The notes under the pieces are model-generated. The model worked only from the letters and a program-made list of their open reading frames with translations, was not told the origin of the DNA and made no database searches. This document shows, piece after piece, positions 1 to 22,747 of a stretch of 24,299 nt of DNA. Source of the DNA: a virus. Position 1 is the first letter of the stretch. The number at the start of each line of letters is the position of its first letter. The translations under genes were made by a program, and so were the position numbers. The stretch covers positions 1-24,299 of IMG/VR virus record IMGVR_UViG_3300021075_000015, one strand, 5' to 3'.

Positions 1-1
1 A

Positions 2-349
2 AAGGTACTAAAGACAGGAGCGAAGGTGGTTGAGAAGAAACTCAAATCAAACCTGGTTTCAGCAGTGGGCAAAAACACGAAACAAAAGTCTGGGTCAACT
101 GGCCAGTTAGCAGGCGCGCTTGGTATTTCACCTGCAATGCAGGATAAAAACGGGAACTACAACGTCAAGGTAGGATTTAGTGAAAATAGGAGCGACGGTA
201 AAAGCAATGCCCTGCTTGCAAATGTACTGGAATACGGAAAAAGCGGCCAGCCTCCAAGACCATTTCTAAAGCCGGCAAAGTCAGCAAGCAGGAATGATTG
301 TATTGAGGCGATGAAAGCAAGCTTGGATAAGGAGTTTGAGGAAGTATGA
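2..349 (+). CDS. HK97 gp10-like head-tail protein, 5' end outside window
   Basis: The reading frame is open from the first bases of the window (codon phase starting at base 2), so this is the C-terminal part of a longer protein. The GTG at 26 is probably an internal valine: the residues before it (KVLKTGAKV) fit the GAKVV helix typical of HK97 gp10-like proteins. The C-terminal pattern, with an 'EYGKSGQPPRPFLKPA' stretch followed by a helix rich in Ala and Glu, is the usual end of this family. Such proteins take part in joining head and tail in siphoviruses. The stop overlaps the ATG of the next gene (ATGA), consistent with one late operon. Identification rests on motif pattern plus gene order. 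Confidence 0.8.
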   Translation, partial: KVLKTGAKVVEKKLKSNLVSAVGKNTKQKSGSTGQLAGALGISPAMQDKNGNYNVKVGFSENRSDGKSNALLANVLEYGKSGQPPRPFLKPAKSASRNDCIEAMKASLDKEFEEV

Positions 350-681
350 GCATTTTATCTGAAATAATTATGGCACTTGAGGAGAGTAATATTCCAATTG
401 AAACTGGAGTGTTTAGCGGGACTTCGCCAAGTGAATACCTTGTAATCACGCCGATGGTGGATTCATATCTGGTATTTGCAGATAACCTACCACAAGCAGA
501 AACAAGCGAAGCAAGGCTCTCGCTCTTTAGTAAGGGCAATTACCTGGCAAGAAAAAATGAAATAACAAATCTGCTGATTGAAGCAGGATTTACGATCACT
601 GACAGGCGCTACATCGGACATGAGGATGAGACCAAATTTCATCACTATGTCATTGATGTGGCGTATGAGTTTAACACATAG
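346..681 (+). CDS. Tail-terminator / tail-completion-like phage protein
   Basis: This 111-residue protein lies exactly between a gp10-like gene and the major tail protein gene, where siphoviruses usually encode the tail terminator. It overlaps the previous stop by 4 bases (ATGA), so translation is probably coupled. The protein is a small alpha/beta type with an N-terminal helix followed by a strand-rich segment (LVITPMVDSYLVFADN) and a C-terminal strand (HYVIDVAYEF), compatible with the tail-terminator fold. No catalytic motif is visible. The role is assigned mainly from position and size; the exact family was not recognised from sequence alone. Confidence 0.6.
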   Translation: MSILSEIIMALEESNIPIETGVFSGTSPSEYLVITPMVDSYLVFADNLPQAETSEARLSLFSKGNYLARKNEITNLLIEAGFTITDRRYIGHEDETKFHHYVIDVAYEFNT

Positions 682-696
682 GGAGGAATATTTATT

Positions 697-1284
697 ATGG
701 CAACAATCGGATTAGATAGACTATATTATTCAAAAATCACAGAAGCAACGGGCGGCATTGAAACTTATGGAACGCCAGTATCACTTGCAAAGGCAATGAA
801 AGTTGACTTATCAGTGGAACTGGCCGAAGCAGTTTTGTATGCTGATGATGGCGCAGCTGAGGTGGTCAAGGAATTTAAGAGCGGGAAACTCTCACTCGGC
901 GTGGACGACATCGGCACCACAGCGGCACAGGATTTAACTGGTGCTACGCTGGATGCAAACGGGGTACTTGTTTCCACAAGTGATGACGGTGGAACACCTG
1001 TGGCCATTGGCTTTAGGGCAAAGAAAGCAAACGGCAATTACCGCTACTTCTGGCTGTATCGGGTGAAGTTTGGACTTCCCGCTACAAACCTTGAAACCAA
1101 GGGCGACAGCATCAAGTTTTCTACGCCAACTATTGAGGGTACCGTCATGCGCAGAAACAAAGTGGACGATGCAGGAAAGCACCCTTGGAAGGCAGAGGTC
1201 AGCGAGGACGGTGCATCCGTTGAGGAAGCAACTATCACCGGCTGGTTTACTGGCGTGTACGAGCCTGAATATGCAAGTGCTTAA
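697..1284 (+). CDS. Major tail protein, phi13 family
   Basis: This 195-residue protein starts at an ATG behind a GGGAGGAA ribosome binding site. The opening MATIGLDRLYYSKI and the following 'YGTPVSLAKAMKVDLSVELAEAVLYADDGAAEVVKEFKSG' region (described in parts: YGTPV, AKAMK, LYADD, EFKSG) are the signature of phi13-type major tail proteins, which polymerise into the tube of a long non-contractile tail. The length is usual for the family. It precedes the tail assembly chaperone and, beyond an inserted cassette, the tape measure gene, which is the standard order. The C-terminal end is acidic and ends in a strand-rich segment. Confidence 0.9.
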   Translation: MATIGLDRLYYSKITEATGGIETYGTPVSLAKAMKVDLSVELAEAVLYADDGAAEVVKEFKSGKLSLGVDDIGTTAAQDLTGATLDANGVLVSTSDDGGTPVAIGFRAKKANGNYRYFWLYRVKFGLPATNLETKGDSIKFSTPTIEGTVMRRNKVDDAGKHPWKAEVSEDGASVEEATITGWFTGVYEPEYASA

Positions 1285-1302
1285 TGAGGAGGGATTTATT
1301 TC

Positions 1303-1689
1303 ATGGAAACTGACAGAGGCGTAACAATCAAAATTGGCACTCAGGAGTATGATCTGATTCTAACCACAAAAGCGACGAAGGAAATCGCCAAGCGCTATGG
1401 TGGTTTGGAGAATTTGGGCGAGAAAATCATGAAGTCAGAAAACTTCGAATTAGCACTGGATGAGGTTGTGTGGCTGATTACCTTAATGGCGAATCAGAGC
1501 GTGCTGATTCATAATTTGCAAAACCCGAGTGAAAAACGGGAACTGCTTACAGAGGAAGCAGTGGAGCTGTTTACTTCACCACTTGAACTATCTGCGCACA
1601 AGGAAGCAATTATGGAAGCGATGCTTAAGGGCACCAAGCGTAACATTGATTCGGAGGAGTCGGAAGTAAAAAACGTGCCAGTCGGGTAA
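1303..1689 (+). CDS. Tail assembly chaperone, short (gpG-like) form
   Basis: This 128-residue protein follows a GAGGAGGG ribosome binding site, 18 bases after the major tail gene. It opens with a beta segment (VTIKIGTQEYDLILTTKATKEI) and continues with helices, as in small tail assembly chaperones that coat the tape measure protein before tube polymerisation. The frame ends at TAA 1687-1689, 13 bases beyond a canonical slippery heptamer at 1668-1674. A second frame continues for 68 codons after it, so this gene very probably makes two products as in the lambda G/GT system. The function follows from position, size and the frameshift arrangement rather than from close sequence recognition. Confidence 0.8.
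   Translation: METDRGVTIKIGTQEYDLILTTKATKEIAKRYGGLENLGEKIMKSENFELALDEVVWLITLMANQSVLIHNLQNPSEKRELLTEEAVELFTSPLELSAHKEAIMEAMLKGTKRNIDSEESEVKNVPVG
1668..1674 (+). other. Programmed -1 ribosomal frameshift site A_AAA_AAC
   Basis: In the zero frame the codons read GTA AAA AAC, giving the heptamer A AAA AAC in exactly the X_XXY_YYZ register needed for tandem -1 slippage. The zero frame stops 13 bases later, while the -1 frame stays open to TGA 1878-1880. The location between the major tail and tape measure genes is where tailed phages place this event. No downstream stimulatory structure was established. Confidence 0.85.
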
Positions 1690-1880
1690 GTGACGAAGAG
1701 TTGTTTGCTCGACTGATTTATTATGGCGTGACACAACTAAGACGGGTAGAGCACGAGGTCTGGCTCATGCCGCTTGGTGAATTACTGGACCACTGGGAGA
1801 TTCACAAGCAGTATATAGGGGAGGCGAAGCCAAGGGTTGAGGTTTTTATTGATGACGTGATTCCAGAATATTTGATTTGA
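1674..1880 (+). CDS. Frameshift extension of tail assembly chaperone (gpT-like part)
   Basis: This is the -1 frame reached from the slippery site. Reading from base 1674 gives 68 residues before TGA, starting RASRVSDEELFARLIYYG and including a Trp- and Glu-rich helical stretch (EHEVWLMPLGELLDHWEIH). Joined to the upstream frame, the long product would be about 192 residues. The segment has no start codon behind a good ribosome binding site at its beginning, which supports expression only as a fusion. In lambda-like systems the extension contacts the tape measure or tail tube protein. Its stop codon overlaps the -35 hexamer of the promoter of the next cassette. Confidence 0.8.
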   Translation, partial: RASRVSDEELFARLIYYGVTQLRRVEHEVWLMPLGELLDHWEIHKQYIGEAKPRVEVFIDDVIPEYLI

Positions 1881-1904
1881 CTTATTTTTGAAAACTGTTA
1901 GAAT
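1877..1904 (+). promoter_or_regulatory. Sigma-A type promoter with extended -10, driving the cargo cassette
   Basis: A -35 box TTGACT lies at 1877-1882 and a -10 box TAGAAT at 1899-1904, separated by 16 bases. The -10 is preceded by TGT at 1896-1898, giving an extended -10. Transcription would start near 1911, leaving a leader of about 42 bases before the ATG at 1953. The -35 overlaps the stop codon of the chaperone extension. Confidence 0.65.
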
Positions 1905-1952
1905 TGGGGTAAGAATTTGTCAAAATGGAATTATCGACGGGAGTGAGTTATT

Positions 1953-2789
1953 ATGATTTGTAATAAATGTGGAAAAGAATTTAAAGAAGAGCATGTTTAT
2001 TGTGGCCGTTGTGGAACAATACTACCTAAATCACAGCCTAAAAAGGGAGTATATTTATACGATAATTTACGATACTTACATCCAATGTTATCTGATATGT
2101 TAATAAAAGTTAGGCAGCTAACTGCCTTATTAAGTTCGTGGAGTGGTTTTAGTTATATAGAAATGGGTGAGCTTATCGAGGAGGATAACTTCAAAGTTAT
2201 GCCGAATTCTTACGATGAGTTATCAAAGAAATTAACTGTAACAACGCAGCGAATTTCATTTATAAGGCTTGTTAAAGCATATTATGTTGTTGATTTGTGT
2301 ATTTTGTCAGCAGCAAAAATAATTGGAGATGAGAATTATATTAATCACCTATACAAAAAAAATAGAAATGGGTTTTTTCTGTTTAATAAAGCGCAAATTT
2401 TAGAAGCAGATCTTTTTGATATTGTCGAAAGCAGAATGGAATGTACCAGAATTATCTCAGTAATTTTAACAGGCGGAAGATATGGCGAAACAAAACTTAG
2501 ATATTATGATGCAATTTTGAAGGCTTTATACAATAATTTGTTTATTTTTGATCATTTATATTTTATGAGCAAATATTCAAATATGACAGATTTTATTATC
2601 GATGTTTGCAACGACTATAATTCAAGAGGAGGAACAAATATAAAGGTTGATCCTAACTCATATTTCATAGAAGATTTAAATTCGCTAAATAAGATTAGAT
2701 TAGACCCAATCTTGTTTTTGAAAATTGCGGGTAACATACCAGCAAGCATATATCATTTTATTAATATTTGGGGAACACGCTTAGAATAA
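1953..2789 (+). CDS. Cargo (moron) protein with N-terminal zinc ribbon, function unknown
   Basis: This 278-residue protein begins with a short zinc ribbon: Cys3, Cys6, Cys17 and Cys20 as CxxC...CxxC (MICNKCGKEF...YCGRCG). The remaining 250 residues are rich in Leu, Ile, Tyr and Asn and look mainly helical, with no motif I recognise and no clear signal peptide. The ATG follows a GGGAGTGAG ribosome binding site. Base use is visibly more AT-rich than in the tail genes on both sides. It is not part of a usual tail module, has its own promoter, and is followed by a second non-structural gene and a terminator. This is the layout of a moron carrying a gene useful to the lysogen; the actual role is unknown. 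Confidence 0.75.
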   Translation: MICNKCGKEFKEEHVYCGRCGTILPKSQPKKGVYLYDNLRYLHPMLSDMLIKVRQLTALLSSWSGFSYIEMGELIEEDNFKVMPNSYDELSKKLTVTTQRISFIRLVKAYYVVDLCILSAAKIIGDENYINHLYKKNRNGFFLFNKAQILEADLFDIVESRMECTRIISVILTGGRYGETKLRYYDAILKALYNNLFIFDHLYFMSKYSNMTDFIIDVCNDYNSRGGTNIKVDPNSYFIEDLNSLNKIRLDPILFLKIAGNIPASIYHFINIWGTRLE

Positions 2790-2849
2790 TTTGAATAAAA
2801 ATAAAGGGAACGGCAAAGTAAGAATAAACCGTTGATGGAGGGGTGCACT

Positions 2850-3128
2850 TTGGGAAAGATATTTATTTGTCCTAAACCAGATAAATGGAATGAAATATTT
2901 GAAAACCTTTGTAGAGCTTATGAAATTCAAACTGGAGAAAGATTACCGTTTCACTCTTCTGAAATGAGTGGAACTGGAGGACCTCCTGTTCCATTGATTC
3001 TTGGGGGCTGGGTATTCACATCAAATCTAGACAAAAAGATAAGATGGGAACAAACAATAAAATGGGCTAAAGAGCGTGGGTTAGACCATCTATTAGATAT
3101 TGAAGAAAGTGATATGCATTATTCTTAA
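2850..3128 (+). CDS. Small cargo protein, unknown function
   Basis: The chosen start is TTG 2850, because GGAGGGG at 2837-2843 lies 6 bases before it; upstream in-frame TTG and ATG codons at 2832 and 2835 overlap that binding site. The product is 92 residues, beginning MGKIFICPKPDKWNEIF. It contains a central Gly/Pro-rich turn (GTGGPPVPLILGGWVFTS) followed by a helix with Trp and charged residues (RWEQTIKWAKERGLDHLL) and an acidic end. It has no signal peptide and no catalytic motif I can name. It sits 60 bases behind the zinc-ribbon gene, in the same AT-rich cassette, and is followed by a terminator. It may be a partner of the upstream protein, an inference from pairing only. Confidence 0.65.
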   Translation: MGKIFICPKPDKWNEIFENLCRAYEIQTGERLPFHSSEMSGTGGPPVPLILGGWVFTSNLDKKIRWEQTIKWAKERGLDHLLDIEESDMHYS

Positions 3129-3207
3129 ATGAATAAAGTATAATTAGTCAAGCAGTCTTAATGTGAAGTTTTATTATTTGTTTACAAAAAATCTGATCGT
3201 AAATTAT

Positions 3208-3235
3208 GAACAATCCAAACGGGTTGTTCTTTTTT
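3208..3235 (+). terminator. Rho-independent terminator closing the cargo cassette
   Basis: GAACAATCC at 3208-3216 pairs with GGGTTGTTC at 3221-3229 (nine pairs, one G-T wobble) around the loop AAAC and is followed directly by six T residues. It lies 80 bases after the small cargo gene and 34 bases before the tape measure start. Confidence 0.8.
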
Positions 3236-3268
3236 GTTAACCCAAAAACACGAAAGGAGTGAATGCAA

Positions 3269-5548
3269 ATGTCTGATTTTGGTCTAAAAATTGGAATTGA
3301 CGGCGAGAAAGAATTTAAAAACGCGCTGCGTGACATAAACCAGAGTTTCAAGGTTCTTGGGAGTGAAATGAATCTCGTAGCCTCTGAGTTTGATAAGAAC
3401 GACCGAAGTATACAGGCCTTAACTGCTCGCAACAAGGTATTAAATAAAGAAATCGAAATGCAAAAGGAAAAGGTCGAAACCTTAGAAAAGGCCTTAAATA
3501 ATGCATCCACTTCTTTTGGTGAAAACGATAAGCGTACCCAAGCCTGGCAGATGCAACTTAACAATGCAAAAGCTGCCTTAAATGGCATGGAAAAAGAACT
3601 CAAGCAAAATGATAGCGCACTTAGTGGTGTTGCGGACGAGTTTAACGATGCCGAGAAACAAACCGAGCAATTCAATTCTGCACTTAAGCGAAGCGAAAAT
3701 ACTGCAGAAAACGCGCATAGCAATTTCTCAAAGCTTGGAACGTCACTTGGTAAAATCGGCGCCGGTCTTGGTGTCGGTGTTGCGGCAATTGGTGTTGCCG
3801 CTATTGGTGCAATCGCTGGTCTTGGCAAGATGTCACTTGCAGCAATAGAAAATGCTGACGAAATCCAAAAAACAGCTGATGTTTATGGTATGTCGGCAGA
3901 GAAGATCCAGGAGCTAACCTATGTCGGCACAAAACTTGACGTCGAACTTGAGACGATTACCAAAGCCCAGAGCAAACTGACCAAGAGCATGTACGCGGCA
4001 AAGGACCCGACAAAAGCTGGTGCTGATGCATTTAAAGAACTTGGGATTAAAGTAACTGACGGAAGCGGCAAACTACGTGATTCGAAGGTTGTCATGGCCG
4101 AAGCATTTACTGCTTTGGGTAAGATGGGCAATGAGACTGAAAGAAACGCTCTAGCAATGAAGCTGTTTGGTAAATCGGCAATGGAACTAAACCCGCTCAT
4201 CAAAGCAGGTGGCGCTGAGATTTCAAAACTGACGGCCGAGGCTAGAAAGTCAGGAGCGGTGATTTCAAACGAAGCAGTAGAAGCGCTTGATAAGTTCGGA
4301 GACAGTTTTGAAGGACTTAAACTAAGTGTTAAGGGTATTGGATCAGAACTTACCGTTGGTCTCTTGCCGGTACTTAACGGGATTCTTTCTTTTGCAAAAA
4401 GTATTCTGCCCGAGATTTCAGGAGCAATCAAGTCGGGCGACTTCACGAAACTTGGAAATGTTCTGGCAGCCGGCATATCAAAAGGGTTATCTCAGGCTAT
4501 GTCTTTATTGAATAAACTTATTCCAGTTATTATGAATATCGTAGGCGCGATCGGCAATGTGATTTTGAAGAATCTGCCGATGATGATTGACTCGGCTGTA
4601 AGTATTGTAATGACACTAATCAAAGGAATCATTAAGGCACTACCACAATTGACAAAAGGCGCGCTTCGACTTGTTCTGACTCTACTCGATGGTATTTTGG
4701 CAAATCTTCCTGCACTTATTAAGGGCGCCATTCAAATGGTAGTCACCTTAGCTAACGGAATCGGTGATGCACTTCCAACGCTAGTTCCAAAAATCGTAGA
4801 TGCACTGATTCTGATTGTCGAAACCATCATTAATAATATGGATATGATCCTTGGCGCAGCACTGAAAATTATCATGGGACTTGCAAAGGGACTCGTGAAA
4901 TCACTGCCGAGGCTTATTAATGCCTTGCCTAAAATTATTGAGGGAATCATTAACTTTATCGTTAATCACCTGCCTGAGATTATTGAGATGGGTATTAAGC
5001 TGGTAATTGAGTTGGCGGTCGGACTTGTTAAGGCAATACCTCAGTTGGTTTCAAAGCTGCCACAGATAATTGGTGCAATTGTATCAGGACTTGGAAAAGC
5101 AATTCTTGCTGTAACGAAAATAGGCTCGGATATTGTTTCAGGTATATGGAAAGGAATTCAGGATATGGCGCAATGGATAACAGATAAGATTACTAGTTTC
5201 TTTAGTGGGATTATCGACGGAGTCAAGGGTTTGCTTGGAATCAAGTCACCGTCAACCGTATTTGCTGATATCGGATCTAACATGGGCGAGGGTTTGGGCG
5301 TCGGGTTTGTGAAGTCAATGGATACAGTCAAGCAGAACATGAAGAAGGCGATTCCAACAAATTTCGACATACTGACGAGTTTAAATGGATTAATGCCTGC
5401 AAACAGCTTTGCTGGTGCTTACGCTGCCTCGTCAACCTATAACCTGTACCAGACAAATAATAATGTAATATCTGATAAGGTTTCGGCCAATGCTTTCTCG
5501 AGCAGTTTAACAACTGGGACAATGCGTTTTTTGAAGGGGGCGTTCTAG
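3269..5548 (+). CDS. Phage tail tape measure protein
   Basis: This 760-residue-class protein is the longest of the window, as expected for a tape measure. ATG 3269 is preferred over ATG 3263 because AAAGGAGT at 3253-3260 lies 8 bases before it. Residues 1-130 are a charged coiled coil (SFKVLGSEMNLVASEFDKND and onward), typical of Gram-positive siphovirus tape measures. A Gly/Ala-rich hydrophobic segment near residues 165-195 may span a membrane. The second half has repeated hydrophobic units of about 40 residues built on an 'LPxLI...I' pattern, roughly residues 400-620, then a 'GIKSPSTVFADIG' motif common near the C-terminus of these proteins. Using the known relation of about 0.15 nm per residue, a tail tube somewhat above 100 nm is inferred. 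Confidence 0.93.
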   Translation: MSDFGLKIGIDGEKEFKNALRDINQSFKVLGSEMNLVASEFDKNDRSIQALTARNKVLNKEIEMQKEKVETLEKALNNASTSFGENDKRTQAWQMQLNNAKAALNGMEKELKQNDSALSGVADEFNDAEKQTEQFNSALKRSENTAENAHSNFSKLGTSLGKIGAGLGVGVAAIGVAAIGAIAGLGKMSLAAIENADEIQKTADVYGMSAEKIQELTYVGTKLDVELETITKAQSKLTKSMYAAKDPTKAGADAFKELGIKVTDGSGKLRDSKVVMAEAFTALGKMGNETERNALAMKLFGKSAMELNPLIKAGGAEISKLTAEARKSGAVISNEAVEALDKFGDSFEGLKLSVKGIGSELTVGLLPVLNGILSFAKSILPEISGAIKSGDFTKLGNVLAAGISKGLSQAMSLLNKLIPVIMNIVGAIGNVILKNLPMMIDSAVSIVMTLIKGIIKALPQLTKGALRLVLTLLDGILANLPALIKGAIQMVVTLANGIGDALPTLVPKIVDALILIVETIINNMDMILGAALKIIMGLAKGLVKSLPRLINALPKIIEGIINFIVNHLPEIIEMGIKLVIELAVGLVKAIPQLVSKLPQIIGAIVSGLGKAILAVTKIGSDIVSGIWKGIQDMAQWITDKITSFFSGIIDGVKGLLGIKSPSTVFADIGSNMGEGLGVGFVKSMDTVKQNMKKAIPTNFDILTSLNGLMPANSFAGAYAASSTYNLYQTNNNVISDKVSANAFSSSLTTGTMRFLKGAF

Positions 5549-5549
5549 T

Positions 5550-6389
5550 ATGTTTGGCATTACATTTCGAGATATCCACTCCAGTGAACTTGGAGCGTTT
5601 TGGCAGACAACCTCAAAGCCCATTCTGCCACAACCAAAACTCTATATTGAAAGTGCTCCCTCAATAGATGGGAGCTTCGATTTATCTGCCTTTAACGCGG
5701 ACGGTCGAGTTCATTATGAAGACAGACTTCATGAAGGTATCTTAAGTGTAGTCGGTCTTGATACGACAGACAAGAATTCAAAGCTATCTAAAATTGCAGC
5801 ATGGCTCCAGGGAGATTATTCGTATCTTGTGTATGACGAAATGCCCTACACTGCCTGGTTTGCAAGAGTAGAAAACATCGGACTTGTCTTAGGAGAACTG
5901 CTAAGAGTAGGCAGGGCCACTGTGTTCTTTCGAACTAAGCCGTTTTCAACAAGAAAAGAGGTGCTTCTTAGTGATGCACTTCTGTTATCAAGCGAAAATT
6001 ACATCGGTGGAGCATATATCTTGGGTCAAGCAAGTTACTTGGGGGATTTCGTGTACAACCACACACTCGATGACGGGCACTTCTACTCGAAGCCATTATT
6101 TTTACTAAAGCCTAACTGGAGCGTCGACGATTACACGATTACTTTATCAGCAAGTGGTCAGGAACCAAAGGTGTTTACACTGGATATTCCATCACCGCAG
6201 GCGTGGGTAATGGTTGATTTCAATCTACTCAGTATTACATCTGAAACGGGTGATAATTTGTTAGGAAACTCAAACGCTGCATTCTTTGAAATTCCACCAG
6301 GAAACTTTGAAATTAGCGTTTCAAGCTCGAACAGTTCCGATATCGAGATGTATCTGAATTTTCAATACATATACGAGGTACCGCTATGA
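5550..6389 (+). CDS. Distal tail protein (Dit), siphovirus type
   Basis: This 279-residue protein begins one base after the tape measure stop, behind GAAGGGGG. The start MFGITFRDIHSSELGAFWQT, the proline-rich 'KPILPQPKLYIESAPSIDGSFDLS' region and the 'HEGILSVVGLD' and 'LQGDYSYLVYDEMPYTAWFARVENI' blocks correspond to the N-terminal belt domain of Dit proteins of Gram-positive siphoviruses, which forms the hub between tail tube and tip complex. The C-terminal half is strand-rich, as in the galectin-like domain of the family. Its stop overlaps the next start (ATGA, 4 bases). Both position after the tape measure and sequence pattern support the call. Confidence 0.87.
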   Translation: MFGITFRDIHSSELGAFWQTTSKPILPQPKLYIESAPSIDGSFDLSAFNADGRVHYEDRLHEGILSVVGLDTTDKNSKLSKIAAWLQGDYSYLVYDEMPYTAWFARVENIGLVLGELLRVGRATVFFRTKPFSTRKEVLLSDALLLSSENYIGGAYILGQASYLGDFVYNHTLDDGHFYSKPLFLLKPNWSVDDYTITLSASGQEPKVFTLDIPSPQAWVMVDFNLLSITSETGDNLLGNSNAAFFEIPPGNFEISVSSSNSSDIEMYLNFQYIYEVPL

Positions 6390-7429
6390 TAAAGATAATT
6401 GATTCTCAAAACCAAATATTCATTCCGTCTGCTTCAAACATCAAGATCACAGCAGAAATCAATGCCGAGTACCGGCTATCGTTCAATGTTTTAAAGACAG
6501 ACGGCGCGTGGGACTTTTTATGTAAAGGGCGTTTGCTTAAATGCGACAATCAACTTTACCGGGTGTATTCAACTACAGAAGAAAATTCTGGGCTCATTAC
6601 AAAGAGCGTGGAGTGTGTGCACGTCATAACGGATGCTACATTAACACACCTAGTCAAGTTCCCTGTTCTTAGTATGGGTTATACATACTTGGAAGATATA
6701 AGCCCACACGACTTAATGGTTAAGGCATTTAATGGCACACCATTTCGTGTCATGGACTTAAACGAAGCGGACTGGGTTACAACTACCACAGACTTTTATC
6801 CGATAAGTAAAACCAACCCACTTGCAGTGGTTCAAAAATTGATTGAGCAGCTCGGTGGGGGTGAGCTTCTGTTAAACGGCTATGACATCGCCCTGGTTAA
6901 ATCTCTTGGGCGAGAAACAGGGTTGGTCTTTGATATGCGAACAAATCTGAAATCAATTTCAAAACAGACTGATATCGACTCTGTGATCACAGTACTCTAC
7001 GGTTACGGCAAGGACTCACTTATGATCGAAGATGAATTTGTGTTGAGTCCAAATGTGAATGACTACGAGCTTCCCAGAGAATCGTCAATGGAGTTTGATT
7101 GGATTACGAACGTATCAAGGCTTGAGGCGGCAATGAACTATATGTTTTCGCCAGACAACCCGAACAGGATTGACGTGCCAAAGGTATCATACAAGATCAG
7201 TTTTATTGATCTGACCAAGGCAGGGTATCCAAACTATAAGATTGGTCTTGGCGATACAATCAATCTTTCAGACTCTGTGCTTGGAATTAACGAGGCGCAG
7301 CGTATTAAGAAGTACGAATATTATCCATTCTCGCCAGAAAATTCGAGTGTGGAACTTGGCAGTCCTCGACGGACAATGTTGGATTATATTAAGAAATCAA
7401 CGATGGGAGGAAGTTTAAATGGCATATGA
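6386..7429 (+). CDS. Prophage tail endopeptidase-like (Tal) protein
   Basis: This 347-residue protein overlaps the Dit gene by 4 bases. The beginning (IIDSQNQIFIPSASNIKITAEINAEYRLSF, in parts IIDSQ, SNIKI, EINAEYRL) and the 'DGAWDFLCKGRLLKCDNQLYRVYS' and 'ECVHVITD' segments match the baseplate-hub fold of phage tail-tip proteins of the prophage endopeptidase tail family. Such proteins sit at the tail tip and in longer relatives carry a peptidoglycan-cleaving domain. At 347 residues this one contains only the hub part, with no visible C-terminal lytic domain, so a lytic activity should not be assumed. It overlaps the next gene by 11 bases. Confidence 0.8.
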   Translation: MIKIIDSQNQIFIPSASNIKITAEINAEYRLSFNVLKTDGAWDFLCKGRLLKCDNQLYRVYSTTEENSGLITKSVECVHVITDATLTHLVKFPVLSMGYTYLEDISPHDLMVKAFNGTPFRVMDLNEADWVTTTTDFYPISKTNPLAVVQKLIEQLGGGELLLNGYDIALVKSLGRETGLVFDMRTNLKSISKQTDIDSVITVLYGYGKDSLMIEDEFVLSPNVNDYELPRESSMEFDWITNVSRLEAAMNYMFSPDNPNRIDVPKVSYKISFIDLTKAGYPNYKIGLGDTINLSDSVLGINEAQRIKKYEYYPFSPENSSVELGSPRRTMLDYIKKSTMGGSLNGI

Positions 7430-8177
7430 CAATAATTTCAGTGGCGCCACCAAACTAAAAGACTGGTGGCAAAAGGTAAAGGCGAACTTTGACTTTTTAA
7501 AGACTAAAGCTGACAACTGCGATACCTTTCAAGAATTTAATAACAAATATCTTTTGCCAGACAAAGAATTTGTAAGAGTAGCAAGCAGTACAAGTGTTCC
7601 ATTACTAACACCTTCCAACGGTGTACTACCAACAATAGACGGAGTTCTGGTTGTAGGTTATGACAGAGTACTTGTTAAGGATCAGATAGACCAAAGACAA
7701 AATGGTATCTATATTGTAAATCCGGCTTCGTCAGGTGTGTGGCAAAGAGCTACTGACTCAAGTCTAAGTGCTTATATTAAGCTTGGAATGAGAGTGTTTG
7801 TAAAAGAGGGTACGACAAATGCACAGCGGTTTTTTGTGCTATCAAGTGCCTCTGATAATCCAATCTATTTAGGTAGTTCTACTCTGGTATTTATTCCAGA
7901 AGCAGTGAAAGCAAGATCCATTAAAAGTGGATCACATACCTTTTCAACTGTAAACCATGGAACAGCGTATAGTTACGCTGTAGCCTTTGGCCTGGGTAAC
8001 ACATTTTTGACAACACCGTCAACAGTCTGTAATGTGCAGACGTTGGCGCCAGAGAACTTTGTGGTTTCGGTGGAAAGCGTATCCGCAAGCGGATTTACCA
8101 TGAGAATCAAAAACATTCATGCTTCCAATGACTACACGAATGTGGTTGTGTTCTGGATTGCGGCTGGGGATATTTAA
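7419..8177 (+). CDS. Phage tail fibre-like protein with phage 'RVLVKDQ' domain
   Basis: This 252-residue protein starts inside the end of the preceding gene behind GGGAGGAAG. Residues 50-160 carry the well-known phage fibre domain with a VRVASSTSVPLLTPSNG-type strand, 'DGVLVVGYDRVLVKDQ', 'QNGIYIV', 'WQRATDSS' and 'GMRVFVKEGTTN', found in many tailed-phage fibres and appendage proteins. The last 90 residues are strand-rich (HTFSTVNHGTAYSYAV and onward) and look like a small C-terminal head domain. It lies between the tail-tip hub and the collagen-like protein, as expected for an appendage that contacts the host surface. The domain resemblance is clear; the receptor is unknown. Confidence 0.75.
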   Translation: MAYDNNFSGATKLKDWWQKVKANFDFLKTKADNCDTFQEFNNKYLLPDKEFVRVASSTSVPLLTPSNGVLPTIDGVLVVGYDRVLVKDQIDQRQNGIYIVNPASSGVWQRATDSSLSAYIKLGMRVFVKEGTTNAQRFFVLSSASDNPIYLGSSTLVFIPEAVKARSIKSGSHTFSTVNHGTAYSYAVAFGLGNTFLTTPSTVCNVQTLAPENFVVSVESVSASGFTMRIKNIHASNDYTNVVVFWIAAGDI

Positions 8178-8192
8178 GGAGAGTGAGTAATT

Positions 8193-9800
8193 ATGCGAGT
8201 AATAAATATAACCGTCGGAGACGAGGGTGCTTTTGTGAGCCCTAAAATCGTGGGCCGAGTTGGAGAGAATAAAACCACTCGACTTGAGTTTAGTCTGCCG
8301 CCATCATTCATGGGCTATCAATACTACATTACTTTCAAACCTGAAGGACTTGACTCCATTCACACAGATACCTTAGAGGAAGAAGACGGCATTGTTTCAT
8401 ATGAACTGGAGCATTTCCTGCTAGTAAAGGGTGTATTGCAGATTGAACTGTCTGCATTTGAAGATGACAAAGTGCTAAAGAGTGCAATTATCTGCCTTGA
8501 AGTGCCAGAGGGTCTTGATGTCGGGGGCGAGTTTCCGAGTGATCCATACACACCGGCATGGTATGTGAAGGTTTTAGATGAGGCGAATAGGGCAAAAGAT
8601 GAGGCAGACAGAGCTGAAAACAGCGCAATACTAGCGGAGACAGCAAAGAATGAAACCGAAACAGCAAAGTCAGCAGCACAAACAGCACTTCAAAGGCTAG
8701 AAGAGGGAATTGCAAATGGCGACTTCAAAGGCGACCCGGGCGAAAAGGGTGTTCCAGGTCAAGACGGAGTCGACGGCAAAGACGGATTAAACGGGCAAGA
8801 TGGAATAAACGGCACTAATGGAGCAGATGGTTTAAACGGACAAGATGGGTTAAATGGTACAGACGGCGTTGATGGAAAGTCCGCCTATGAAGTAGCTGTT
8901 ACAAATGGTTTTGTTGGGACTCAAGTGCAATGGCTGGCGAGTCTTCATGGAGCTGACGGCATAAACGCCACCACAACTGCAGTAGCTACTGAAACAACAA
9001 ATGGGTTAATGTCATCAACTGATAAGGTATATCTTGACGGGTTGCCAGTAAGTATGAGTGCAAAAGCTGATAAAGATAATTTAATTACTGCATTTACCTT
9101 TTCGCCTTCGCAAGCAACCCTGCCAAATCTGCCATCAAGCGACGGGTCGGTTTTTATTACTTGTACAGCACATGGTTTGTCAGTAAACGATATTATCTCA
9201 TTCACTGGAGCAACACCGCTGTTTGGTGGTGTCGCCATTCCAGTGGGTAAAAAGTATCGTGTTATTGCGGTGACTGGTCCTAATACTTTCGTACCGTTTG
9301 GTTCCAATATTACTGCAAAAGCTGCAGGCGGCTGGAATGTGGTGAAACATTCATCTGTCCCTGCTATTATCTTTAGCAATCTTGGAGTGGACAGTTCATG
9401 TAATGAGGTGACAGTAGAGTTTAAGGCAACAACAGTCTATCGAGACAGTGGAAGTGTGGCACAGTTTTATTTTACGCTAAATGGGATCACATCCGCTTCT
9501 TACTGTCCATTCAAGAGTTCGGCGATAGGCGTTGCAGGAGCGCTTGTGTCTAAGTTTGTAATTTCAGACTGTACTTCAGGAGAGAACCAGGGTGAAGAAA
9601 TCCACCTATGTTCAATGACGCTTAAGCGGATAAGCACAAGTGTATGGAGTGTACTTATCAACTCAGGCTACAGAAACAGTTATTTTGCCACAGCCTATGG
9701 CTATGTTTCTGATTCATCGTTTTCCACACTTAGTAGTTTGGAGTTACTATTTAATGTTGGCGCGTGTGTTGATGGAACTTTTATAATCAGGAGGGGATAG
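8193..9800 (+). CDS. Collagen-like receptor-binding / baseplate upper-like protein
   Basis: This 535-residue protein has four visible parts. Residues 1-115 are a strand-rich domain resembling the N-terminal domain of baseplate upper proteins (BppU type) used to attach to the tail. Residues 128-172 form an Ala/Glu/Lys coiled coil with AKxEADRAE-type heptads. Residues 180-228 are collagen-like Gly-X-Y triplets rich in Asp and Asn. Residues 230-535 form the C-terminal part, starting with an 'SAYEVAVTNGFVGTQVQWLASLHG' segment often seen after phage collagen repeats, then a strand-rich head ending IIRRG. A trimeric host-recognition fibre is the natural reading. The ATG follows AAGGAGAGTGAG. Confidence 0.8.
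   Translation: MRVINITVGDEGAFVSPKIVGRVGENKTTRLEFSLPPSFMGYQYYITFKPEGLDSIHTDTLEEEDGIVSYELEHFLLVKGVLQIELSAFEDDKVLKSAIICLEVPEGLDVGGEFPSDPYTPAWYVKVLDEANRAKDEADRAENSAILAETAKNETETAKSAAQTALQRLEEGIANGDFKGDPGEKGVPGQDGVDGKDGLNGQDGINGTNGADGLNGQDGLNGTDGVDGKSAYEVAVTNGFVGTQVQWLASLHGADGINATTTAVATETTNGLMSSTDKVYLDGLPVSMSAKADKDNLITAFTFSPSQATLPNLPSSDGSVFITCTAHGLSVNDIISFTGATPLFGGVAIPVGKKYRVIAVTGPNTFVPFGSNITAKAAGGWNVVKHSSVPAIIFSNLGVDSSCNEVTVEFKATTVYRDSGSVAQFYFTLNGITSASYCPFKSSAIGVAGALVSKFVISDCTSGENQGEEIHLCSMTLKRISTSVWSVLINSGYRNSYFATAYGYVSDSSFSTLSSLELLFNVGACVDGTFIIRRG
8730..8876 (+). repeat. Collagen-like Gly-X-Y coding repeat
   Basis: About 16 consecutive Gly-X-Y triplets are encoded here, with DGLNGQDG and DGVDGK variants recurring. 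DNA units such as GGACAAGATGGGTTAAA-like and GGGCAAGATGGAATAAA-like 18-base pieces are near copies, so the tract could change length by slippage or recombination. Confidence 0.85.
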
Positions 9801-9801
9801 T

Positions 9802-10074
9802 ATGCAGGAAAAGTTAATAGTTGACTGTCTTACAAATGAAACGCAGATAGTTATGGCAGCCGAGGAAATATCGGAAGTAAATTTAGCGTATTTTATTGAC
9901 ATTAAAACTGCTCAAATAAAGCAGTTGCTATCAGAAAGCAACGAAACACAGTTAGTAGATGCACCTATTACTTATGAGAAAAAGTTAGAGTGGCGAGAGT
10001 ATAGAAAAGTACTAAGAGAACTTTTGACCGACCCCACCTTTCCAAATGTGGTGATACCAGATAAGCCAGATTAA
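9802..10074 (+). CDS. Small phage tail (fibre) assembly chaperone-like protein
   Basis: This 90-residue protein starts one base after the receptor-binding gene, behind GGAGGGGAT. Its C-terminal pattern, KLEWREYRKVLRELLTDPTFP followed by Pro-rich residues (in parts EWREYRK, LRELLTDP, PNVVIPDKP), is the motif of small phage tail fibre assembly chaperones, in which a WxxYRxxLR helix precedes a proline-rich end. The N-terminal half is a short beta/alpha segment. Placement directly after the fibre gene fits a role in folding or assembly of that fibre. No enzyme activity is expected. Confidence 0.65.
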   Translation: MQEKLIVDCLTNETQIVMAAEEISEVNLAYFIDIKTAQIKQLLSESNETQLVDAPITYEKKLEWREYRKVLRELLTDPTFPNVVIPDKPD

Positions 10075-10095
10075 ATATTATTAGAAACGATAGAG

Positions 10096-10125
10096 AACCT
10101 CTTTAAAAAACTAGGGGGTTTTTTG
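10096..10125 (+). terminator. Rho-independent terminator-like hairpin after tail genes
   Basis: AACCTCTT at 10096-10103 can pair with AGGGGGTT at 10113-10120 (including T-G wobbles), followed by a run of six T. It separates the tail genes from the lysis genes. The stem is modest, so it may be leaky. Confidence 0.55.
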
Positions 10126-10156
10126 TTATATGCGAAAGAGAGGAGAAGTGGGAGAT

Positions 10157-10423
10157 ATGGAGATTGATCACAAATGTATTCAGGAAGAGCGTATCAGAGC
10201 CTTGGAAACTGGAACCGCTGAAACGCGCGTGTATGTGAAGCTGATCCGCGAGGACTTGGCAGAAATCAAAGATTCACTTAAGGAAATCAGAGGCTCGCCA
10301 GAGCAGCAGGAGCAAAGCCAGAAACGCTGGCAGGGAGTTGTAATGGAGTTACTAAAACTGCTAGGCGTATGCCTGGCAATATTAGCATCAATATTTGGTG
10401 CAATAAAATTATTTGGAGGATGA
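10157..10423 (+). CDS. XhlA-like membrane-associated lysis protein
   Basis: The ATG at 10157 is preferred over 10130 because GAGGAGAAGTGGGAG lies just before it; this gives 88 residues. The protein has a charged coiled-coil N-terminal part (IRALETGTAETRVYVKLIREDLAEIKDSL, in parts ETRVYVK, REDLAEIKDSL) and one C-terminal hydrophobic helix (LLKLLGVCLAILASIFGAIKLF). This is the layout of haemolysin XhlA proteins, membrane-anchored partners of phage holin and endolysin. Its stop overlaps the leader of the amidase gene, and the holin follows, which supports a lysis module. The family assignment is from architecture and position. Confidence 0.75.
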   Translation: MEIDHKCIQEERIRALETGTAETRVYVKLIREDLAEIKDSLKEIRGSPEQQEQSQKRWQGVVMELLKLLGVCLAILASIFGAIKLFGG

Positions 10424-10428
10424 GGGTT

Positions 10429-10974
10429 ATGAAGAAAGGTATTTACATTAGTCCGTCGACACAGGAGCACAACGTTGGCGCAGGAAGTTACGGCACAGAA
10501 GAAAAAAGAATGAACGAGATTGCTGATGTGGTTGAAATCACACTCAAAAAGCATGGACAACTTACTTTTAGGAACAAGCCGAGTTTTACACTGACCGAGG
10601 TGGTTCATGACTCAAATGTAAAGAATCCAAAAGTTCATGTGGCGATTCACTCAAATGCAGGTGGTGGTGGCAAGGCGCGTGGTTGTGAAGTATACTGTCA
10701 CAAGTTTGGGACAGCCGGTGAGAGATTGGCTAAAGAAATCTATGCAAATGTAAGTGCAATCACGCCAACCACCGACCGTGGTGTGAAGGAAGGTCAGAAT
10801 TACTTCGGTAAAGGCAAACCGCTGTATGAGACGGCAAAGACAACGGCAGTTGCTGCGTTAATCGAGATTGCCTTCCATGATTCGCCTGAGGATGCAAAAT
10901 GGATCCAAACGCACATCAGACCAATCGGCGAGGCAATCGCAAAAGGTATCTTGGAATACCTGAACGTGAAATAG
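10429..10974 (+). CDS. N-acetylmuramoyl-L-alanine amidase (phage endolysin, Amidase_3 type)
   Basis: The ATG at 10429 has TTGGAGGA 8 bases upstream, giving 181 residues starting MKKGIYISPST. Zinc-dependent amidases of the Amidase_3 family cut the bond between MurNAc and L-Ala in peptidoglycan. Visible family residues are His14 (in QEHN), Glu24/Glu25 followed by N29, His74 in 'VAIHSNAG', and the catalytic Glu146 in 'ALIEIAFHDSPEDA'. The usual 'DxGHGG' around the first His is replaced by SPSTQEHN, which is seen in phage-type members. There is no cell-wall-binding domain after the catalytic domain, so this is a single-domain endolysin. Neighbours are an XhlA-like gene and a holin, completing a lysis cassette. 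Confidence 0.9.
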   Translation: MKKGIYISPSTQEHNVGAGSYGTEEKRMNEIADVVEITLKKHGQLTFRNKPSFTLTEVVHDSNVKNPKVHVAIHSNAGGGGKARGCEVYCHKFGTAGERLAKEIYANVSAITPTTDRGVKEGQNYFGKGKPLYETAKTTAVAALIEIAFHDSPEDAKWIQTHIRPIGEAIAKGILEYLNVK

Positions 10975-10987
10975 GGAGGAATCGAAC

Positions 10988-11185
10988 ATGGGACAATCAA
11001 GATTTAGAAGTAAGGTGGCATGGGTTGCGGTATCTGCGCTCGTGCTTTTTTTACTCAAGAACTACGGACTACTTGGAGGCGTTGGCTTGACTGAGGGAGC
11101 ATATGATACTTTCGTTAATCTGCTCTTTGGCGTCTTGACTACATTTGGAATCTTTAACGATCCGACTAACAAGACCGGGTTTTAG
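10988..11185 (+). CDS. Phage holin, phiLC3 family
   Basis: This 65-residue protein follows a GGGAGGAA ribosome binding site, 13 bases after the amidase gene. It has an N-terminal hydrophobic helix (VAWVAVSALVLFLLKNYGLL) and a second amphipathic to hydrophobic stretch (TFVNLLFGVLTTFGIFNDPTNKTGF, in parts FVNLLFGVLTTFGI and NDPTNKTGF). The ending 'GIFNDPTNKTGF' is characteristic of phiLC3-type holins. Holins form membrane lesions that release the endolysin at the end of infection. It is the last gene of the lysis cassette and is followed by a strong hairpin terminator. Confidence 0.92.
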   Translation: MGQSRFRSKVAWVAVSALVLFLLKNYGLLGGVGLTEGAYDTFVNLLFGVLTTFGIFNDPTNKTGF

Positions 11186-11889: not shown

Positions 11890-13206
11890 GTGCGAACAAT
11901 AACCAGGATTGAACCAAAAACTTTTATAATCCCAACAAAATTAAGAGTCGCTGCTTACTGTAGAGTTTCGCTTGAAAAGGAAAGTATGTTGCACTCGCTT
12001 TCAGCTCAAGTTAGTTACTACAGCGAGTTCATCCAAAACCATAGAGGCTGGCAGTATGTCGGGGTTTATGCCGACGAAGCCATATCAGGCACATCAAATA
12101 TTCGCCCCGAGTTCAACAGGCTACTTGTGGATTGCCGAGAGGGAAAGATTGATATGATTATTACAAAATCAATTTCTCGGTTCGCTAGGAACACTCTCAC
12201 CATGCTTGAGGTGGTCAGGGAATTAAAAAGTATCAACGTGGATGTGTTCTTTGAAAAAGAAAATATTCACTCAATCAGTGGGGATGGCGAGCTAATGCTT
12301 ACCATCCTCTCTTCATTCGCCCAGGAAGAAAGTCTCTCGGTAAGCGAGAACTGCAAGTGGCGAATTAGAAATCAGTTCAAAACCGGTGTACCTTATCATT
12401 TTTCCATTATCGGTTATGAGCTAAAAAACAATAAGCTTGAAATCGTCCCCCGAGAAGCAGAGGTTATAAGAATGATTTTTAATGATTTTCTATCAGGCAT
12501 GGGCAAGATTGCTATCATTAAAAAACTAAACGCAAAGGGTCTTATGACAAGAAACAATAAACTGTGGCAAGAGAAGGCTGTTGACAGGATTTTGCGTAAT
12601 GAAAAATATGCAGGAGATCTGCTTTTGCAAAAGTTCTATAGTTCAAATCATTTGGAAAAACAAAAACGTGTAAATGTTGGTCAACTTCCTTCGTATTACA
12701 TAACAGACAGCCACGAACCGATTATTGATAGGGATACATTTGAGAGAGTACAGTTGGAACTAGAAAAGCGAGCACGGATTTATAACGCCGGAGCAGTTAC
12801 TGGAATGCCACATTCCTTTGCAGGTAAAATCGTTTGTGGTGAATGCGGGGACAATTATCGAAGAAGAATAACCCACGCAGGCGAGAAATATGAAAAAGCA
12901 GTGTGGATTTGCACAACTAAGAACAGACTTGGAAAAGAAGCCTGCGGCTCAAAACAAATCCCTGAGGATATTATTTCAAAAACGACTGCTGAGGTTTTAG
13001 GAATAAAGGACTTTGATGAGGATTTGTTTAGTCAAAATATTAAGATGATTAAAGTAACAGACACTAACCATTTAGTGTTTGTTTTTTTAAATGGGCTCGA
13101 ATGCATAAAGCTATGGCAGAATAATTCGTGCCGAAATAGTTGGAGTGAAGAGAAAAGGCAAAAACAAAGGGAGATGATTACATGCAGGCTACAGGAGCAA
13201 AAATAA
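11890..13206 (+). CDS. Large serine recombinase without coiled-coil domain (first of pair)
   Basis: This 438-residue protein starts at GTG 11890 behind a GATAGGAGC binding site. The N-terminal catalytic resolvase domain has Ser27 in 'YCRVSLEKES' and the arginine-rich 'SISRFARNT' motif. The recombinase domain follows (residues 165-270), then a zinc beta ribbon with CGECG near residue 317 and later Cys in 'WICTTK' and 'ACGSK'. The coiled-coil region that normally follows in large serine integrases is missing: the terminal strand ('VTDTNHLVFVFLNGLECIKLW') comes almost directly after the ribbon. The gene overlaps the second recombinase by 25 bases, so they are surely co-translated. It may act with the second protein or as an accessory factor. 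Confidence 0.88.
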   Translation: MRTITRIEPKTFIIPTKLRVAAYCRVSLEKESMLHSLSAQVSYYSEFIQNHRGWQYVGVYADEAISGTSNIRPEFNRLLVDCREGKIDMIITKSISRFARNTLTMLEVVRELKSINVDVFFEKENIHSISGDGELMLTILSSFAQEESLSVSENCKWRIRNQFKTGVPYHFSIIGYELKNNKLEIVPREAEVIRMIFNDFLSGMGKIAIIKKLNAKGLMTRNNKLWQEKAVDRILRNEKYAGDLLLQKFYSSNHLEKQKRVNVGQLPSYYITDSHEPIIDRDTFERVQLELEKRARIYNAGAVTGMPHSFAGKIVCGECGDNYRRRITHAGEKYEKAVWICTTKNRLGKEACGSKQIPEDIISKTTAEVLGIKDFDEDLFSQNIKMIKVTDTNHLVFVFLNGLECIKLWQNNSCRNSWSEEKRQKQREMITCRLQEQK

Positions 13207-14774
13207 CAGTAAGACCAGCAACAATTGGGAGGTACTCAACTATACCAACTAATCTGGCTTACAAAAAGCGAGTCGCGGCTTATGCCAGGGTATCAACAGA
13301 TACTGAAGAACAGCAATCAAGCTACGATGCTCAGGTCAAGCACTACTCAAAGTTTATAAAGGAGAATGTTGCTTGGGAGTTTGTAGAGGTGTATGCCGAC
13401 GAGGGTATTTCTGCAACAAGTACCAAGAAGCGAGACGGCTTTAATAGAATGATTTCCGATGCACTTGAGGGTAAAATCGACCTTATTGTTACCAAGTCAG
13501 TAAGCAGATTCGCCAGGAACACCGTCGACACGCTTACCACGGTACGAAAGCTTAAGGAATGCGGTGTGGAAGTGTACTTTGAGAAAGAAAACATTTATAC
13601 CCTCGACAGCAAAGGCGAACTTCTAATCACAATCATGTCATCTCTCGCCCAAGAGGAGTCGCGTTCCATTTCAGAGAATGTCACTTGGGGCCAGAGAAAG
13701 AGATTTGCTGACGGAAAGGTGAGCCTTCCCTACAAACACTTTCTTGGCTTTGAGAAAGGCGAGGGCGACATTCCGAAAATAGTTGAAAGTGAGGCAAAGG
13801 TAGTCAGGCTAATTTATAAGCTCTTTTTAGAAGGACAAACGCCAACGGCATTAGCTAGGTATTTAACTGAAAATGGGATATTAACACCCTCTGGTAAGAA
13901 AGTATGGAAGTCAAATGTGATAAATAGCATCCTGAAAAACGAAAAATACAAAGGCGACGCAATGCTTCAAAAGTCGTTTACGGTTGATTTTCTGACTAAG
14001 AAAAAGAAAATAAACGAGGGTGAGATTCCACAATACTACGTTGAAAATTCTCACCCAGCAATCGTAAGCCCTGAGGTTTATAACCTGGCCCAGTATGAAT
14101 TTAAAAAACGAAAGGCCAATAAGGGTTACAAGACCTGCGGCAGCTGCTTTTCAGGTAAGATAATTTGTGGGGAATGTGGCAGTATATTTGGCAGAAAAGT
14201 TTGGCACTCAAACAGTAAATACAAGCGTGCCATTTGGCAGTGTAACAGCAAGTTCAAAACAAAAAAGAAATGCGGGACTCCGCACATTTACGAGGATTCA
14301 ATAAAGGCCGCGTTTGTTGAAGTCTTTAACTGCTTGATTGGAAACAAGGCACTACTTCTCGCGGATTACGCTGAAATAATTATGGTGATTACAGACACGA
14401 CTGCACTTGAGAAAGAAAATTCAAAACTTCAGACCGAGATTGATGTGGTGCTTGAACTGCTTAGAAAGAGTGTGGACGAAAACGCCAGAACGGCAATTAA
14501 CCAATCGGATTATGAAAAACGTCATAATGCACTACTTGATAAGTTCGAAACTACAAAAGATAAAAAGGCTGAGGTTGAAGAAAAACTTAAGGAGCGTCAG
14601 GCTAAGGGTGAAGAGATAAGGGTGTTCATGAAAAAGCTTGAGGAGTCAGAAAATTTACTCACAACTTTTGATGATGAGCTTTGGAATGCAACGGTGGTGA
14701 GGGTTGTGGTTGGAAACGAAAACACGGCATGGTTTGAGTTCAAGGATGGTCAGGAAGTTGAGTGGAAGATTTGA
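13182..14774 (+). CDS. Large serine recombinase / prophage integrase (second of pair)
   Basis: This 530-residue protein carries all parts of large serine integrases. The catalytic domain has Ser38 in 'YARVSTDTEEQ' and the 'SVSRFARNT' motif; the recombinase domain spans about 180-290, with a zinc beta ribbon with CGECG and 'WQCNSKFKTKKKCG'. A long coiled coil runs from about 410 to 500 (ALEKENSKLQTEIDVVLELL and on), and a short strand-rich end contains 'VVRVVVGNENTAWFEF'. Such enzymes join attP and attB in one direction unless a directionality factor is present. It lies at the last position before a terminator, where prophage integrases adjacent to an attachment site are usually found. This is the more probable integrase of the two. 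Confidence 0.92.
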   Translation: MQATGAKITVRPATIGRYSTIPTNLAYKKRVAAYARVSTDTEEQQSSYDAQVKHYSKFIKENVAWEFVEVYADEGISATSTKKRDGFNRMISDALEGKIDLIVTKSVSRFARNTVDTLTTVRKLKECGVEVYFEKENIYTLDSKGELLITIMSSLAQEESRSISENVTWGQRKRFADGKVSLPYKHFLGFEKGEGDIPKIVESEAKVVRLIYKLFLEGQTPTALARYLTENGILTPSGKKVWKSNVINSILKNEKYKGDAMLQKSFTVDFLTKKKKINEGEIPQYYVENSHPAIVSPEVYNLAQYEFKKRKANKGYKTCGSCFSGKIICGECGSIFGRKVWHSNSKYKRAIWQCNSKFKTKKKCGTPHIYEDSIKAAFVEVFNCLIGNKALLLADYAEIIMVITDTTALEKENSKLQTEIDVVLELLRKSVDENARTAINQSDYEKRHNALLDKFETTKDKKAEVEEKLKERQAKGEEIRVFMKKLEESENLLTTFDDELWNATVVRVVVGNENTAWFEFKDGQEVEWKI

Positions 14775-14917: not shown

Positions 14918-14983
14918 GGGTTCATAGAAAATTGTTAATTTTATGAAGGAATATTATCGGAATATTTGCGAGGTGAATTGCCT

Positions 14984-16210: not shown

Positions 16211-16225
16211 AACCAAAAGCTTATA

Positions 16226-18008: not shown

Positions 18009-18392
18009 ATGGGGAAATATGGACAAACAGCTATACTAGCAATGAATTATATTATAGAAGGTTATGCAAAAACACCTAACGTGGCTTGGGATGAAGCATC
18101 AAAAGAAATCTTTGGAGAAGGTACCTCAAGTCAAACAAAAGGGTGCCCAAGAAATACATTTTTAGGTCTATGTGAGAACGGTAAAATTAAAGGGGTTAAC
18201 GCTGGAAGTTATACTTCTTCTAAAAAGAATAAGGATTATGCATTGAAAGCATGTGAATTTCTCAAAAACAACCCTAGTCTATCAAAAGAACCAAAGTTGC
18301 TTTGGGCAAAAATAATGCAAGGGCAGAAAATAAAGTATAATCAGCAGATGGATGTCGTATGTGCTTTATGGGATATGGGTCTGATTACTTGA
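18009..18392 (+). CDS. DUF6979-like conserved hypothetical protein
   Basis: This 127-residue protein starts at ATG behind GTGAGGTAAAG. It begins MGKYGQTAILAMNYIIEG and contains 'WDEASKEIFGEGTSSQTKGCPRNTFLGLC' (in parts EASKEIFG, SSQTKGCPR, TFLGLCENG) and ends 'QMDVVCALWDMGLIT'. I recall this combination from small bacterial proteins grouped as DUF6979, found scattered in many genomes, often near mobile DNA; the role is unknown. The K-G-C-P and SSKKNKDYALKA segments look conserved and could be functional, but no catalytic motif is evident. It stands alone between the charged protein and the lipoprotein-like gene, with its own binding site. Confidence 0.6.
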   Translation: MGKYGQTAILAMNYIIEGYAKTPNVAWDEASKEIFGEGTSSQTKGCPRNTFLGLCENGKIKGVNAGSYTSSKKNKDYALKACEFLKNNPSLSKEPKLLWAKIMQGQKIKYNQQMDVVCALWDMGLIT

Positions 18393-19273: not shown

Positions 19274-19351
19274 CTTCAATTACTCAAAATACTGGTTTGG
19301 GTACAAACTTTATTTGAAGAAAAAATGAATTTGAAAGGATAGGTGTTTATT

Positions 19352-20050: not shown

Positions 20051-20087
20051 AAATTTTTTAAACTGCCATCCCCATGTCGTGCTCGTG

Positions 20088-20096: not shown

Positions 20097-20115
20097 GTTA
20101 TTGAGGTGATTTCAA

Positions 20116-22716: not shown

Positions 22717-22747
22717 AAAATGAATTGAAAAACAAGGAGGTGTTTTT

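Follow-up and report, generated by a model that had tools for sequence, protein, structure and literature searches.

Why does a siphophage tail operon carry two AT-rich genes between its frameshifted chaperone and its tape measure gene? We addressed this question in a viral DNA of 24,299 nucleotides, which in its full length is called the window here. The left part of this 24.3-kb window is a siphophage tail operon encoding tail completion and terminator proteins, the major tail protein, gpG with its frameshift product, the tape measure, Dit, and tail proteins. An amidase-like gene was also recognized by eye in the operon. An earlier, sequence-only reading had proposed that the two genes, designated P1 and P2 here, form a self-contained cargo cassette of the moron type. 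We therefore examined the parts of this cassette, the corresponding position in related phages, and the possible roles of the two proteins.

The cassette and its borders

The left border of the slot is the tail assembly chaperone gene. gpG matched PHROG 2115 (tail; E = 2.8e-23), and the second chaperone frame matched phrog_10988 (E = 5e-23). The canonical slippery heptamer was in place, and the −1 frame ran on to its own stop codon (Table 1); the same heptamer was found in 161 of 163 related loci. On the right border, the tape measure gene matched phrog_58 (tail length tape measure; E = 1.4e-66). The distance from the gpGT stop to the tape measure start was 1,382 bp, with a GC content of 31%.

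Table 1. Features of the slot and location of a second slot. Positions refer to the window unless a locus is named.
Feature	Position	Strand	Description
gpG, tail assembly chaperone	1303-1689	+	gpGT is the −1 frameshift product, stop 1878-1880; left slot border
Slippery heptamer A AAA AAC	1668-1674	+	In frame with gpG, for −1 frameshift
Replaceable cassette	1865-3207	+	Unrelated DNA in sister phage L002 here
Predicted extended −10 promoter	1877-1904	+	TTGACT, 16 nt, TAGAAT; TG before −10
P1	1953-2789	+	278 aa; zinc ribbon at residues 1-23, then ~250 aa predicted mostly helical
P2	2850-3128	+	92 aa; TTG start; ribosome-binding site GGAGGGG at 2837-2843
Intrinsic terminator	3208-3235	+	9-pair stem 3208-3229, then T6 3230-3235; before tape measure gene
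Tape measure gene	3263-5548	+	Start 3263 or second ATG 3269; right slot border
Second cargo slot, terminase-portal	L017 486-531; L061 502-531; L121 312-363; L002 ~420-474		Ends in terminator type and trailer of the tape measure slot; other similar examples

The −35 element of the predicted promoter overlaps the gpGT stop codon. Its score of 11 in the 87-nt leader was reached by about 0.5% of 200 shuffled leaders (p ~0.005). Over the first 6 kb of the window, promoter-like matches were no commoner than chance (14 versus 13.0), so the evidence for this promoter is its position and not the number of such matches. The position recurred in relatives. Counting the window, seven slots whose cargo is unrelated have a −35 element built over the stop codon of the chaperone gene (TTGA), with a usually extended −10 element 16 to 17 nt downstream. 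For about half of all slot leaders, the promoter score was not above chance as judged from shuffles.

P1 and P2 have GC contents of 0.30 and 0.35, compared to 0.40 to 0.50 in the other tail genes, and their GC content at third codon positions (GC3) was 0.22 to 0.25 versus 0.35 to 0.51. The terminator that follows them is conserved with the closest relative, sister phage L002, and is of the same type as in other occupied slots. Taken together, the elements named in the sequence-only reading were all recovered, namely, an extended −10 promoter scoring above its shuffled leaders, AT-rich genes for a 278-residue zinc-ribbon protein and a 92-residue protein, a closing terminator, and a composition unlike both sides. 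Its notion of a self-contained block also stood, but the limits of the replaceable part shift slightly; it ends at 3207 because the terminator is common to the sister phage and is thus not included.

Several other regions of the window drew our attention. Two overlapping large serine recombinases lie in tandem (11890-13206 and 13182-14774) at the right end of the phage. They are followed by adjacent secreted-looking DUF6273 and metallo-beta-lactamase-fold proteins (14966-17464) that have a nearly identical C-terminal Big_2 domain. An AT-rich gene group at 19343-23667 is possibly another mobile or defense region. It contains a protein weakly matching the PADLOC viperin-associated NERD model (19343), an RNase-J-like metallo-hydrolase (20850), a protein judged nuclease-like by eye (22117), and a Tn916-Xis-like excisionase (23329).

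A recurrent slot in related phages

Relatives were gathered with gpG, gpT, and tape measure queries, and in each of them we measured how far the tape measure start lies from the gpT stop. Among 163 distinct loci (window included), the slot was empty in 121 and occupied in 42. Empty slots measured 8 to 118 bp (median, 23 bp), mostly just a ribosome-binding site, and occupied slots measured 325 to 3,058 bp. The 163 loci are not all independent; kinship grouping by flank identity gave 104 clusters at 90%, of which 37 had an occupied member and 5 contained both states. The mixed groups, along with the prevalence of empty loci, imply that the empty site is the usual one and that the slot changes fast. 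The sequence-only reading had held that the chaperone and tape measure genes are usually adjacent and had proposed looking for an empty site in relatives; the 121 empty loci bear out the first point and supply the second.

The sister phage gave the sharpest view of the insertion. Its DNA aligned with window positions 1-1864 at 90% identity and with 3208-8006 at 87% identity. Between these blocks, with breakpoints at window positions 1864 and 3208, it carries 1,014 bp of different sequence encoding a 188-aa protein and a DUF4177-like gene. The sequence-only reading was to be given up if P1 and P2 proved to be core genes in all related phages. No homologue of either was found in any related phage locus, and thus, they are not core genes.

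The other occupied slots hold highly diverse cargo. All 42 inserts were lower in GC than both of their flanks (mean of 0.39 versus 0.51 and 0.52). Automatic gene calls yielded 70 cargo ORFs in 53 different protein families. These included PIN and MazE-type (PIN/AbrB) proteins (L228, with relatives in L012 and L066), ParE toxins (L067 and L176), a Fic protein (L184), an AAA_14-DUF4143 protein (L129), Phd/YefM, RelB, a DNA alkylation repair protein, a GNAT acetyltransferase, and a uracil-glycosylase-like protein, among others. Matches to PADLOC models (PDC-S01, PDC-S04, PDC-S24, SoFic, PDC-M11A, and IetA-type AAA proteins) were to single proteins, not complete systems. The slot is a real cargo hotspot, and about a quarter of the related phages carry differing foreign cargo, with toxin-antitoxin and candidate anti-phage genes among it.

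Two further observations concern the cargo. In L066 (6572-8331), two toxin-antitoxin-like modules are stacked in one slot, which suggests stepwise addition of cargo. A DUF6979 protein encoded after the recombinases of the window (18009-18392) has a 44% identical homologue that is slot cargo in L031 (7691-8026).

In a hairpin scan of the 130 bp preceding the tape measure gene, 25 of the 42 occupied slots had a terminator, located 27 to 45 bp before the gene. The same scan was positive in 7 of 400 and 4 of 410 control stretches, in 1.5% of shuffles, and in 2 of 96 short empty slots. Many of the slot terminators share the signature GGAGCAATCGAAAGGTTGCTCC-TTTTT-CATGCCC, and the shared stem has paired changes, both members of 3 pairs having changed. 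Searching with a covariance model built from 12 copies added nine terminators at this location that the scan had not detected (four of which scored >50 bits), for a total of 34 of the 42 occupied slots. One covariance model, R1, came from a mixed terminator alignment and found no base pairs; R2 was used instead.

The presence of the terminator depended on the direction of the cargo. It was found in 30 of 31 slots in which the last cargo gene points toward the tape measure gene and in 4 of 11 in which it points away (Fisher p = 8.8e-5), with orientation taken from automatic gene calls, some of which look doubtful among the eleven pointing away. Such a dependence is expected if the cargo is transcribed independently and the tail genes need insulation. 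We infer that the terminator shields the tail genes from the activity of a cargo promoter at times when the operon should be silent. Of the two modules in L066, the forward one has a weak copy of the signature downstream (7347-7392; 19 bits, E = 0.21), and the reverse one, next to the tape measure gene, has none. Three nearly empty slots (L171, L174, and L175) retain the terminator without cargo, as if it were the scar of a lost insert.

Some relatives have the hairpin and trailer of the slot terminator upstream of the portal gene as well, where they close a second cargo slot (Table 1). The strict scan found them in 13 of 80 distinct portal upstream regions, plus near-misses; in other relatives, the terminase gene is directly followed by the portal gene. 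The portal slot of the sister phage holds a gene for a BspA-type leucine-rich-repeat protein (LRR_5; L248 2896-3702, minus strand). The trailer there is the lineage variant TTTTTTGTTACCC, which is also the one in its tape measure slot. On the plus strand of the examined loci, the signature was almost absent outside these slots. One odd cassette thus becomes a mapped hotspot with a fixed position, a recognizable terminator signature, and some 40 occupied examples, and it gives a simple rule for locating prophage-borne traits in a little-studied phage group. What may be new in these results is a hotspot that extends across the clade and shares a single terminator type between two slots.

Morons have been described as insertions between genes that are adjacent in relatives, with their own promoter, operator, and/or terminator and with a different GC content; occurrence in other phage classes is an optional mark (PMC2920897). 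For the cassette, the flanking genes are adjacent in 121 of 163 loci and enclose a different insert in the sister phage, the predicted promoter at 1877-1904 and terminator stem at 3208-3229 would provide its own transcription control, and the GC content of both genes is unlike that of the rest of the phage. The optional mark was the one not found. On these grounds, we class 1865-3235 as a moron, in which two cargo genes occupy a recurrent slot flanked by gpGT and the tape measure gene, with a probability of roughly 0.85. This agrees with the moron architecture put forward in the sequence-only reading, given the empty site in most relatives, the other cassette in the nearest sister, the control elements, and the distinct composition.

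The predicted promoter and the orientation-dependent terminator make expression of P1 and P2 in lysogeny likely. From the layout and the orientation rule, both genes would be transcribed from the cassette's own promoter in the prophage, at a time when the structural operon is silent, and the transcript would end at the terminator without entering the tape measure, tail-tip, and lysis genes. In the lytic cycle, transcription of the late operon would have to pass the terminator by antitermination or partial read-through. A terminator inside the late operon would be costly without antitermination, and this counts against the moron reading. The alignment with the sister phage shows replacement of the cargo as a block. 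The exchange between phages would most likely proceed by recombination in the conserved flanks, using the chaperone end as the left flank and, as the right flank, the terminator together with the beginning of the tape measure gene.

Possible roles of P1 and P2

In P1, the CxxC...CxxC motif at residues 3-20 matched Pfam Zn_Ribbon_1 (E = 0.0013, under the curated cut-off). No homologue was found for the approximately 250 residues beyond the ribbon. Searches of Pfam, PHROGs, NCBIfam, PADLOC, PDB sequences, and phage and plasmid collections returned no named family for either protein, with ribbon or chance matches only, in line with the earlier statement that the genes have no recognized function. 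Neither protein matched a PADLOC defense model at E ≤ 1, and no Rfam family was found in the window. We discarded five genome loci matching P1, in which the zinc ribbon alone matches, and three marginal ribbon-less P1 matches that were within chance (E of 0.003 to 0.01 per genome over 299 genomes). A PDB match to P2 (E = 0.0029) was dropped since the chain, C3HR3_9r_shift4, is apparently a designed protein, and the protein behind a Rhizobium plasmid match to P2 (E = 0.6) is hypothetical and unrelated. With a mean pLDDT of 57 for P2 and 41 for P1, the AlphaFold2 models built from single sequences were not good enough to search for similar folds.

P2 carries the motif GGPPxPLILxGW...DKxxRWxxTIxWA. 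Searches of sampled Bacillota genomes yielded two relatives of P2, both on bacterial contigs and both without a P1 partner; P1 was not found in other phages, and P2 had no relative in phages, plasmids, or viral contigs. One relative is a chromosomal gene for a 104-aa protein (L241 7186-7500) in a type I restriction-modification operon, where it is flanked by hsdS and hsdR. It is 44% identical to P2 over P2 residues 40-73, with the motif PPxPLILxxWxxT...K..R....I.WA. The other relative is closer to P2, is split over two frames, and lies in a region of the L243 genome with attC-like repeats. P2 and its relatives make up a small protein family that has no name, and one of its members is encoded within a restriction-modification operon. 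This location is suggestive of a link to defense, as a hint from one neighbor and no proof.

The L243 region itself (4400-11000) looks integron-like. Three attC-like repeats (5863, 6888, and 8933) separate cassettes of one or two genes, and an Xer-type tyrosine recombinase lies beyond them, but the integron integrase model gave only 38.8 bits, compared to a cut-off of 265.

The other slot cargo and the P2 relative in the restriction-modification operon make the defense, exclusion, or fitness trait put forward in the sequence-only reading plausible for P1 and P2. A prophage-expressed trait that limits competing phages would be their most likely single role, at somewhat short of an even chance. 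Another host-fitness trait, or some other function, is a serious contender.

A role in toxin-antitoxin activity or stabilization appears unlikely. In its specific form, P1 and P2 would be a toxin-antitoxin pair stabilizing the prophage, and the cassette would be a moron but carry no defense gene. ParE/Phd, PIN/MazE-type, and Fic proteins among the other slot occupants are in keeping with such a pair, as are two adjacent genes behind one promoter. However, no toxin or antitoxin domain was found in either protein in Pfam, NCBIfam, or PADLOC, and a 278-aa first gene and P2 relatives that lack P1 are ill-suited to a classic pair. We consider the toxin-antitoxin pair decidedly unlikely.

A tail or virion-assembly role restricted to this lineage, with late expression of P1 and P2 as part of the operon and a merely incidental promoter and terminator, is very improbable. 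The sister phage, with flanks that are ~87 to 90% identical, lacks both genes and has its own pair in their place, the slot is empty in most relatives, the GC3 of the two genes is far from that of the other tail genes, and promoter and terminator enclose P1 and P2. These points outweigh the location on the operon strand between two tail genes and the shortage of homologues, which is often seen for diverged structural genes. Chance landing of a small, autonomous mobile element resembling a transposon or an intron would account for the low GC and the precise insertion between genes but is barely credible, as there is no transposase, intron protein, or Rfam match, the slot keeps its position in 42 loci although its cargo varies, and the insert borders coincide with the promoter and terminator.

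The moron reading can be extended to both slots. They would then be a standard cargo platform with related terminators, and P1-P2 would be an anti-phage system whose P2 family also works in type I restriction-modification loci; we regard this joint reading as doubtful. With the same doubt, the platform trailer would consist of a T-run, CATGCCC or the lineage variant GTTACCC, and then a ribosome-binding site, and swapping of the block would spare the late operon.

Comparison with known systems

In coliphage HK97 (AF069529), gp15 (8203-8391), which is annotated as a moron product, occupies the same slot; its neighbors are the −1-frameshift chaperone Gp14, directly upstream, and the tape measure gene downstream. 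An annotated putative terminator (8398-8422) follows gp15, as in the window cassette. The cassette therefore belongs to a known kind. According to passages in PMC10884400 (citing Cumby et al. 2012) and PMC10883804, gp15 is a superinfection exclusion protein, and it is described as a predicted inner-membrane protein (PMC10883804). HK97 gp15 is one 62-residue gene in a coliphage, whereas the window cassette comprises two genes in a distant phage group, and neither P1 nor P2 had a match in the phage collection that contains HK97.

Tab of Pseudomonas phage JBD26 is a moron gene of the late operon that is expressed from the prophage and blocks competing phages (PMC10884400). Compared by description, Tab and the cassette are alike in being small orphan genes in a late operon with their own promoter. 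Unlike the cassette, Tab is flanked by the terminase genes, is encoded on the opposite strand, and is accompanied by an anti-Tab gene (PMC10884400). The Tai systems and prophage immunity hotspots (PMC11364771) belong to beta- and gammaproteobacterial phages and occupy other positions, and no genes common to the window cassette were seen among them. What they have in common with the slot described here is the arrangement, i.e., variable immunity genes at fixed phage positions, which the authors call “moron loci.”
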